From the NCBI GenBank assembly GCA_039024915.1, contig JBCCPK010000002.1, positions 62,001 through 126,000 on the forward strand: a DNA stretch of 64,000 nt, in the 5' to 3' direction. The position numbers and the translations under genes are program-made. Shown one piece after another: positions 62,334 through 63,980 of this stretch (the stretch's first letter is position 1; each line of letters opens with the position of its first letter). Source of the DNA: Pseudomonadota bacterium. GTDB taxonomy: Bacteria; Pseudomonadota; Alphaproteobacteria; Rhizobiales; MH13. The notes beneath the pieces are model-generated. The model made no database searches and was not told where the DNA came from. It was given only the letters and a program-made list of their open reading frames with translations.

Positions 62334-63980
62334 ATGCTCGAAACCGCAGTCACCCCCCGCACGTCGCAAACCAAGACCCAGCTTGAGAAGGCGGCCTACC
62401 CGGTCCTGACCGATTCCCAACTGGCGCGGCTCGAAGGAGCGGGACGACGGGAGAACCTACCCAAAGGCCATGTGCTTTGGGAGGTGGGAGCGGACAGCTA
62501 TGACTGTTTCCATGTCCTGAGCGGATCAGTTGACATCATCGATCGCACCGACGGGCACACGGTTGTAAAACTTCAGGCCCCAAACCTGATCGGAGAACTT
62601 GGCCTCCTGATGGGTCAGCGAACGTTTTTTGCAGGCGTGGTCGGTGAAGATGCCGACATGATCATCGTCCCCAACGCCAAACTGCGAGAACTGATCGCCA
62701 CCGATCCGGAATTAAGCGATATCATCGTCACCGCCTTTGCTGCCCGGCGCAGACTGATCCTCGAATGGGGCGAAGGTCGCCTGACCATCATCGGTGACCC
62801 AAAAAATCGTAAGACCCTGGAACTCCTGCAATTTGCCACCCGCTCACTTGTCCCCCATCGCTTCGTTGATACCGGCGAACCGGGCTGGCGTGACCGGGTG
62901 GAGCACACGTGCAGCTTACCCGATGGCCAGTGTCTTGCGCTGATCGGCAAAGACGAGGTTTTGGTCGACCCGGAAACGCGCGAGGTTTCGGCTGCACTTG
63001 GCCTCGATCTCGAAGCGAAAGCCGACAAGGTGTTCGACGTACTTGTCGTCGGAGCGGGACCTGCCGGCCTCGCCGCGTCGGTTTACAGCGCGTCCGAAGG
63101 GCTCGATGTGATCACCATCGAAGACACCGCAATTGGTGGGCAAGCCGGAACGTCGAGCCGCATCGAGAACTATCTGGGGTTTCCCAGAGGCGTTTCAGGG
63201 GCGGAGCTGGCATACCTTGGTGAAGTTCAGGCTGTGAAATTCGGGGCCCGCTTCACGGTCCCTCGGCGGGCATCTCGGCTCGTGCGAAAGTCCGATCACT
63301 TCGCGGTGGAGCTGGACGATGACAGCTGCATCCGTGCCCGTGCGCTCATCCTTGCAAACGGTGTGCAGTATCGCCGTTTGCCGCTGGAAAACCTTGAAGC
63401 ACTTGAAGGCCACGGCGTTTACTACGCTGCAACAGAGCTTGAGGCGCGCTTCTGCAAGAACACGGAAGCAGTCATTATCGGTGGGGGAAACTCGGCCGGG
63501 CAGGCCGCCATGTTCCTGTCGCGCCACGCCAAACACGTTCATCTCGTTGTGCGTCGCGATGGCCTTTCGGAAACCATGTCATCTTACCTGACGAGCCGCA
63601 TTCATAGTGACCCGTCGATCACGCTGCACACACTCAGCGAAGTCACGGCGCTGGCGGGGAGCGAACGGCTGGAAGGTCTGACGCTGACAAACCGCCAGAC
63701 TGGAACGCAGACCAACATCGCAACAACAGCTCTTTTCATCATGATCGGTGCTGCACCGAACACCGAATGGCTGTCAGGTCAGATCGAGTTGGACGAAAAG
63801 GGATTTGTGAAAACCGGCCAAAGTGTCGGACTTCATACGCGTGGATACGCCACATCATTGCCGGGGGTGTTCGCAGTCGGTGACATCCGTTCAGGCTCGG
63901 TCAAGCGCGTGGCGTCCGCTGTTGGCGAAGGATCGGTCGTGGTTTCAGCGGTGCATGGCTATCTTGCCGATCCGACTTAA
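62334..63980 (+). CDS. Thioredoxin-reductase-like flavoprotein with cyclic-nucleotide-binding domain
   Basis: A 548-residue protein with three parts: a cyclic-nucleotide-binding domain (about 30-150), a linker that looks like a glutaredoxin or thioredoxin fold without cysteines (about 151-225), and a thioredoxin-reductase-like two-dinucleotide domain. FAD motif GAGPAGLAASVY (240-251), NADPH motif GGGNSAGQAAM (383-393), and GVFAVGDIRSGSVKRVAS at the end. Where normal thioredoxin reductase has CxxC before the NADPH site, this reads AATELE (365-370), so there is no redox disulfide. The start is ATG 62334; a longer frame begins at 62265. Divergent from gloA. Confidence 0.88.
   Translation: MLETAVTPRTSQTKTQLEKAAYPVLTDSQLARLEGAGRRENLPKGHVLWEVGADSYDCFHVLSGSVDIIDRTDGHTVVKLQAPNLIGELGLLMGQRTFFAGVVGEDADMIIVPNAKLRELIATDPELSDIIVTAFAARRRLILEWGEGRLTIIGDPKNRKTLELLQFATRSLVPHRFVDTGEPGWRDRVEHTCSLPDGQCLALIGKDEVLVDPETREVSAALGLDLEAKADKVFDVLVVGAGPAGLAASVYSASEGLDVITIEDTAIGGQAGTSSRIENYLGFPRGVSGAELAYLGEVQAVKFGARFTVPRRASRLVRKSDHFAVELDDDSCIRARALILANGVQYRRLPLENLEALEGHGVYYAATELEARFCKNTEAVIIGGGNSAGQAAMFLSRHAKHVHLVVRRDGLSETMSSYLTSRIHSDPSITLHTLSEVTALAGSERLEGLTLTNRQTGTQTNIATTALFIMIGAAPNTEWLSGQIELDEKGFVKTGQSVGLHTRGYATSLPGVFAVGDIRSGSVKRVASAVGEGSVVVSAVHGYLADPT

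Follow-up and report, generated by a model that had tools for sequence, protein, structure and literature searches.

The window analysed here, a stretch of 64,000 nucleotides from an alphaproteobacterial contig, carries on its forward strand an open reading frame (62334..63980; ATG at 62334, stop codon at 63978-63980) that encodes a protein of 548 aa. The start codon is supported by the protein of a congener (L128), which aligns from residue 1. The protein consists of a cyclic-nucleotide-binding-type (CNB) domain (residues 22-146; 62397..62771), a linker of glutaredoxin fold without CxxC (residues 147-231; 62772..63026) and a FAD/NADPH core of the low-Mr thioredoxin reductase (TrxR) type (residues 232-548; 63027..63977), all on the plus strand. 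Pfam searches revealed matches to cNMP_binding (PF00027; 33.7 bits, cut-off 27.5) and Pyr_redox_2 (124.2 bits). The linker was assigned by hmmsearch and by VIA-align comparison of a predicted model, the core by VIA-align.

The predicted structure of the full-length protein had a mean pLDDT of 83.2. Residues 225-548 of this model matched AhpF and thioredoxin reductases with Z values of about 31 (rmsd 3.4-3.6, 304-312 residues); individual comparisons of the predicted core showed Z 31.1 for the M. smegmatis TrxR (rmsd 3.4, 305 residues) and Z 31.2 for AhpF (rmsd 3.6, 312 residues). Both members of a L. lactis TrxR pair gave Z 31.0 and rmsd 4.0, so that this fold comparison fits the FO and FR conformations equally well. 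The FAD motif GAGPAG (residues 240-245; 63051..63068) and the NADPH motif GGGNSA (residues 383-388; 63480..63497) keep the GxGxxG and GxGxxA residues (G240, G242 and G245; G383 and A388). G240, G242, P243 and G245 are invariant in 36 of 36 family sequences, and G383, N386, S387 and A388 in 56 of 56. Arg407-Arg408 (63552..63557), which we take to mark the 2'-phosphate side of the NADPH site, aligns with an HRR motif found in 31 of 31 canonical TrxB sequences. R407 is present in all 56 family sequences and R408 in 22 (21 in a second alignment); the window protein keeps both.

At the place of the TrxR redox disulfide the window protein reads YAATELEARFC (residues 364-374; 63423..63455). Its AATELE aligned residue by residue onto CATC-D of solved thioredoxin reductases, with A365 and L369 on the two TrxB cysteines. 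In an alignment of 56 family sequences no CxxC was present at this site, whereas CATC was found in 31 of 31 TrxB sequences, which were picked from the window's own and related genomes by this motif (all 31 loci tried carried it). The replacement of CxxC by AATELE, as proposed by the sequence-only reading, is thus borne out. The first TrxB cysteine column is occupied by A, G, S or W in the family and the second mostly by M, L, V or I, with one extra residue between them. The Asp that follows CATC in all 31 TrxB sequences falls on Glu370 (63441..63443), a Glu in 56 of 56 family sequences. An acid at this position is kept in eight further sequences outside the 56 (L137, L147-L153), and one other protein (L182) has Asp there. 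Where TrxB has RQA (R in 30 and K in 1, Q in 31 and A in 31 of 31), the window protein has Lys524-Arg525-Val526 (63903..63911), and KRV was found in 56 of 56 family sequences. In E. coli TrxR, CATC-D and RQA contact the flavin. The fixation of Glu370 and KRV argues for selection for a different chemistry and not for decay; judged by these alignments, this is a conserved family and not a decayed gene. The features that define the CNB-TR family were found in the window protein, namely a CNB domain, a glutaredoxin-like linker, a core lacking CxxC, the pattern Y-x-A-x3-E-x3-C and KRV.

The TrxR model TIGR01292 matched the window protein with 231.6 bits, below its cut-off of 343.45, and the other family loci in 41 related genomes likewise stayed under the cut-off. 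An FF motif, named as thioredoxin-binding in the accessible part of PMC9025218, was present in 31 of 31 TrxB and in 0 of 56 family sequences. One of the 56 sequences (L022) has a C..C pair elsewhere (CTGC), starting at the position of Cys374.

The window protein contains five cysteines (58, 193, 200, 332 and 374). Cys374 (63453..63455) is the sole strongly conserved one, with Cys in 52 of the 56 sequences, in six of the eight further ones and in 39 of 39 in a smaller alignment. It is missing in L058, L063, L067 and L069 and in L148 and L153, and the tree spreads these losses over no fewer than four positions (L058; L063; L067, L069 and L153; L148). A search for a second conserved cysteine in the smaller alignment found none; the best other column had Cys in 26 of 39 sequences and corresponds to Ala324 of the window protein. 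A redox disulfide elsewhere in the chain, named by the sequence-only reading as the result that would count against it, is accordingly rejected.

The linker had been described as thioredoxin-like and free of cysteines. Profile search and model comparison point to a glutaredoxin/thioredoxin fold, in agreement with the first description; the second does not hold, since Cys193 (62910-62912) and Cys200 (62931-62933) lie within it. Neither is at a CxxC position; Cys193 is shared by 14 of 39 relatives, and one of three congeners lacks Cys200. The best hmmsearch match of the linker profile was the mycobacterial glutaredoxin Mrx1 (E 0.00096). Folded alone, the linker gave a pLDDT of 78.8, and this model aligned with glutaredoxins with Z values of 8-10 over 72-84 residues, mostly at rmsd 2.2-3.0. 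The glutaredoxin Pfam model PF00462 matched four of 36 family linkers and not that of the window protein. Glutaredoxins carry their active-site Cys where helix 1 begins; this Cys is absent here, with GDPKNRK in its place, and the linker alignment contains no conserved Cys. The linker is probably a catalytically dead glutaredoxin fold.

A profile of the family CNB domains found cGMP kinases, PKA regulatory subunits and CRP. The phosphate-binding cassette GELGLLMGQRTFFAGV (residues 87-102; 62592..62639) had been considered conserved. This holds for its Gly-Glu part, as the acid is kept (E in 38 and D in 17 of 56 sequences), but not for its Arg. An ungapped alignment to kinases and to a CNB domain that we presume to be of the cGMP type places the phosphate-binding Arg at T97/F98, where one and none of the 56 sequences, respectively, have Arg; at residue 96 the count is 13. 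One gapped alignment (3h3u) places Arg96 of the window protein at the phosphate-binding position, and Arg96 is kept in the three congeners. Under this alignment Arg96 could serve cAMP binding in this genus. PRS or PRT (GQPRSA/IPRTA) is seen in the same alignment in no fewer than three further CNB proteins encoded by this genome (L185-L187). Two class III cyclase matches were detected in the genome, and cAMP may be present in the host. With the phosphate-binding Arg gone from its usual place throughout the family, and visible in these other CNB proteins, the data lend no support to cAMP or cGMP, two of the ligands first suggested.

The gene was found in 4 of 4 genomes of the genus examined, with 75-76% identity in the three congeners and a conserved neighbourhood. 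A search of 397 sampled genomes of the phylum revealed a match at E 1e-60 or better in 56. Further relatives were detected in records named Rhodobacteraceae and other Pseudomonadota, Acidobacteriota, Planctomycetota, Cytophagales, Cyanobacteria, Actinomycetota and Deinococcota. The family is widespread and mostly unstudied. A relative of linker and core with 37% identity was also seen in a record of a phage collection (MT838110.1, 4294-5358; Bacteriophage sp., human fecal), whose DNA may be bacterial. Canonical TrxB scored above the cut-off in 36 of 41 related genomes, the window's own included, so the family generally adds to TrxB and does not replace it. In the window's genome the canonical TrxB with CATC (L002) lies at G000:C2:25116-26027, and a paralogue (L003), presumably ferredoxin-NADP-reductase-like, at G000:C7:91315-92286. 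A tree placed the CNB-TR family on one side against TrxB with support of 96/92; its rooting is uninformative, as the L003 row has a very long branch. In its labels L147 and L153 are grouped as variants despite their CNB domain, and L068, which has no CNB domain, is listed in the CNB group.

The neighbours kept within the genus, one divergent gene upstream and one frame downstream, which we take to be a glyoxalase-type gene and a RidA-like frame, offer little functional information. The window neighbourhood contains no trxA, chaperone or zf-UBP genes, and a zf-UBP partner was also not found in the window's genome. A candidate EcfG general-stress promoter was rejected, as GGAAC-N15-18-GTT had 10 matches in the window against 7.3 expected by chance, none of them near 62.3 kb; a sigma-70-like site before the gene was not found either. 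Three actinobacterial loci contain a row of GrpE, DnaJ, CbpM, ClpB, TrxA and zf-UBP genes that ends in CNB-TR (L054, 4269-6749; L057, 4245-7119; L155, 4224-7086), and a fourth actinobacterial CNB-TR locus that was examined (L058) has no chaperone row. The TrxA proteins of these rows have extra CxxC pairs at the N-terminus, and DUF1931 follows CNB-TR in the two Rhodococcus loci. Of 115 loci with the family, which differ in length and some of which share one gene, 13 contain a zf-UBP motif. On a Paraburkholderia dioscoreae plasmid (L148) a stand-alone Grx-TR and zf-UBP lie amid PsiE, Clp ATPase, Hsp20 and HdeD genes, a setting that reminds us of transmissible heat-resistance islands. In a group of Rhodobacteraceae loci (L008, L015 and related ones) YcjX (DUF463) and DUF697 genes precede the family gene. 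A scan of 93 neighbour proteins from 26 loci of the genome collection revealed no common neighbour beyond YcjX (5), DUF697 (5) and a class I tRNA-synthetase (4). The 93 were aligned out of 120 frames, with 27 mutually repeating ones of seven Henriciella/Hyphomonadaceae loci omitted, and the scan left out L013, L019, L021, L023 and L027, whose family gene a simple gene caller had missed.

Some members lack the CNB domain. No input domain of any kind is present in five proteins (L136, L137, L148, L149 and L150; L136 and L068 are one and the same gene), and in L151 and L152 a receiver domain (PF00072) stands in place of the CNB. A search with this receiver form (receiver-TR) revealed 11 plasmid records at a coverage of at least 99%, among 119 with a match. 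In the ten with at least 49% identity, which come from cyanobacteria, Burkholderiaceae, Deinococcus and actinobacteria, the receiver has the Asp of a DxRMP motif. In nine of these ten (L151, L152, L175-L181) the next gene encodes a histidine kinase with CNB and HATPase_c domains, and start and stop codons of the two genes often overlap; the exception (L174) has a transposase gene where the kinase is expected. An HE(L/M)NNPA H-box was present in all ten kinases examined. In the eleventh record (L182) a stretch resembles a receiver but lacks the Asp motif, and no kinase is present. A zf-UBP gene follows the kinase in L177, L178 and L180. A special kinship of the kinase CNBs with the flavoprotein CNBs was not shown, as they scored 17.6-61 bits, no closer than known CNBs. 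The same sensor and output thus appear to occur either fused or split via a phosphorelay, which is new in this analysis. The proposal of the sequence-only reading that the enzyme is switched by a ligand gains support from this arrangement of a receiver-flavoprotein gene next to one for a CNB-histidine kinase. In the limited library available, no title or abstract opening was found that notes the missing CxxC of the family or the split kinase form.

One relative of the same architecture has been characterised. According to the accessible part of PMC6544261 (PLoS One 2019), ATII-TrxR from the Atlantis II brine pool has the CNB-TR architecture, binds FAD and uses both NADPH and NADH (Km 5.21 uM and 4.17 uM). 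The kcat given there is 5.63 per s for DTNB and 28.4 per s for a thioredoxin. Its authors describe it there as a high-Mr TrxR with model-based redox centres Cys206-Cys223 and Cys376-Cys467; the term CxxC is absent from the text. The spacing of Cys206, Cys223 and Cys376 in that description equals that of Cys212, Cys229 and Cys382 in the C. metallidurans homologue L053, which shares 40.6% identity with the window protein over 96% and, like it, has a CNB domain, a linker and a TrxR-type core. Placed on L053, the two cysteines of the first published pair occupy columns in which 5 and 7 of the 56 sequences have Cys, and only Cys376 is general, which argues against these pairs as redox centres of the family. 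That the enzyme is reported to accept NADH agrees with the lost second NADPH-site Arg of the C. metallidurans homologue. The published rates are evidence that thiol chemistry has not vanished altogether, and we weigh this in full; together with the kept FAD and NADPH motifs they suit the earlier description of the window protein as a flavin NADPH oxidoreductase. Without a dithiol the reported thioredoxin reduction is difficult to account for, and host TrxR carried over as a contaminant may be its source; the DTNB reduction is no proof of a physiological acceptor. The stronger statement, that normal thioredoxin reductase function is impossible for this protein, is supported at the level of sequence and needs a qualification. 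The missing CxxC, the score below the TIGR01292 cut-off, the missing FF motif and the separate CATC-type TrxB of the genome all argue for it, but a relative of the same architecture is reported to reduce DTNB and thioredoxin (PMC6544261).

The architecture is also found under the product name "cyclic nucleotide-binding domain-containing thioredoxin-disulfide reductase" in plasmid records; among the 132 such records with a match, 107 reach a query coverage of 80% or more. It is thus already named in databases, and the TrxR activity implied by that name appears unsupported given the lost CxxC. With canonical low-Mr TrxB (TIGR01292) the window protein has the fold and the FAD and NADPH motifs in common, whereas the family differs by the missing CxxC, the change of Asp to Glu and of RQA to KRV, and the missing FF motif. 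It resembles AhpF in having a thioredoxin-fold domain before the TrxR core, and residues 161-548 of the predicted model matched intact AhpF (1hyu) with Z 28.3 (rmsd 3.2, 316 residues). In contrast to AhpF, it lacks both redox disulfides and has a CNB domain where AhpF has a second thioredoxin fold; the AhpF model TIGR03140 gave 159.7 bits, below its cut-off of 502.9, and no CxxC is present in the window protein. Other TrxR-fold flavoproteins that depart from the scheme of NADPH and CxxC are, as described in the accessible part of PMC9025218, the TrxR-like ferredoxin/flavodoxin-NADP reductases, FFTR/DTR and DDOR. FFTR and DDOR are described there as retaining CxxC and losing the NADPH motif, the reverse of the window protein. 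Solved FNR types scored at most 65 bits against the window protein, compared with 165.7 for TrxR.

The reading that we favour, with a confidence that stops a little short of even, is an NADPH-dependent flavoprotein reductase that is gated by a signal and needs no disulfide relay. NADPH would reduce the FAD in the TrxR-fold core, as expected from the kept motifs and as measured in one relative according to the accessible text of PMC6544261. As both active-site cysteines are lost, the reduced flavin would pass electrons directly to an acceptor bound at the former place of the disulfide. Glu370 may act as proton donor, the role of the Asp in TrxR, and Arg525 would lie beside the flavin in place of Gln. 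The architecture and the split kinase/receiver form suggest that the N-terminal CNB domain gates the reaction through the dead glutaredoxin-fold linker. The weakest step is the acceptor. It would most likely be a disulfide or another oxidised group of a small redox partner in protein stress, because the relative is reported to reduce DTNB and thioredoxin and because related genes adjoin trxA, chaperone and zf-UBP genes; against this speaks that the window neighbourhood has none of the three and the genome no zf-UBP. We further propose, more tentatively, that CNB-TR and the pair of CNB-kinase and receiver-TR are the one- and two-component forms of one module. Its output would be a redox reaction in place of DNA binding. 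An NADPH flavoenzyme that has no TrxR disulfide would be gated directly by a phosphorelay or by a ligand, and the CNB ligand would not be cAMP or cGMP in the usual mode.

Three other accounts of the enzyme deserve weighing. The protein could be a true if unusual thioredoxin or disulfide reductase, with Cys374 as single nucleophile forming mixed disulfides that are then resolved by the flavin. Cys374 is kept in 52 of 56 sequences and corresponds by spacing to Cys376 of ATII-TrxR, an enzyme reported to reduce thioredoxin and DTNB, and trxA lies two genes upstream in the three actinobacterial loci; we nevertheless consider this unlikely, as the residue was lost repeatedly in the tree while Glu370 was kept, and the thioredoxin-docking FF motif is missing throughout. 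That some members tolerate this loss would rather suit a diaphorase- or oxidase-like enzyme that delivers electrons from NADPH to quinones, flavin or O2 without a thiol partner, possibly with peroxide as a signal. Loss of the disulfide would expose the flavin, and two downstream frames of L005 (12190-13443), which are not adjacent, resemble quinone reductases, presumably of the flavodoxin fold. However, no quinone-enzyme gene is prominent beside the family among the first 25 of 62 families in the neighbour scan, and the activity reported for the relative with DTNB and thioredoxin points away from this account, which we judge to be rather improbable.

A signal protein that senses flavin or NADPH and has no turnover, its core informing the CNB, receiver or zf-UBP partner about the cellular redox state, would agree with the fusion to signalling domains and with the lost catalytic cysteines. 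Yet Glu370, KRV and the NADPH motif are fixed over several phyla, beyond the needs of a bare sensor, and turnover is reported for the relative in the accessible text of PMC6544261, which makes this account distinctly improbable. A pseudogene or annotation artefact has nothing in its favour but the missing CxxC. It is refuted by the identity in 3 of 3 congeners, the conserved neighbours, the absence of stops and the occurrence across the phylum, and its probability is negligible.

The window protein belongs to an enzyme family that is real, conserved and wrongly labelled. Because of their fold, many proteins bear the annotation thioredoxin-disulfide reductase although they lack the catalytic disulfide, and the part given to them in redox models is probably incorrect. 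The comparison of the fused and split forms makes the role of the sensor testable. If the gating is true, bacteria would possess an NADPH-driven redox enzyme that either a ligand domain or a histidine kinase controls directly; among two-component systems such an output would be uncommon.
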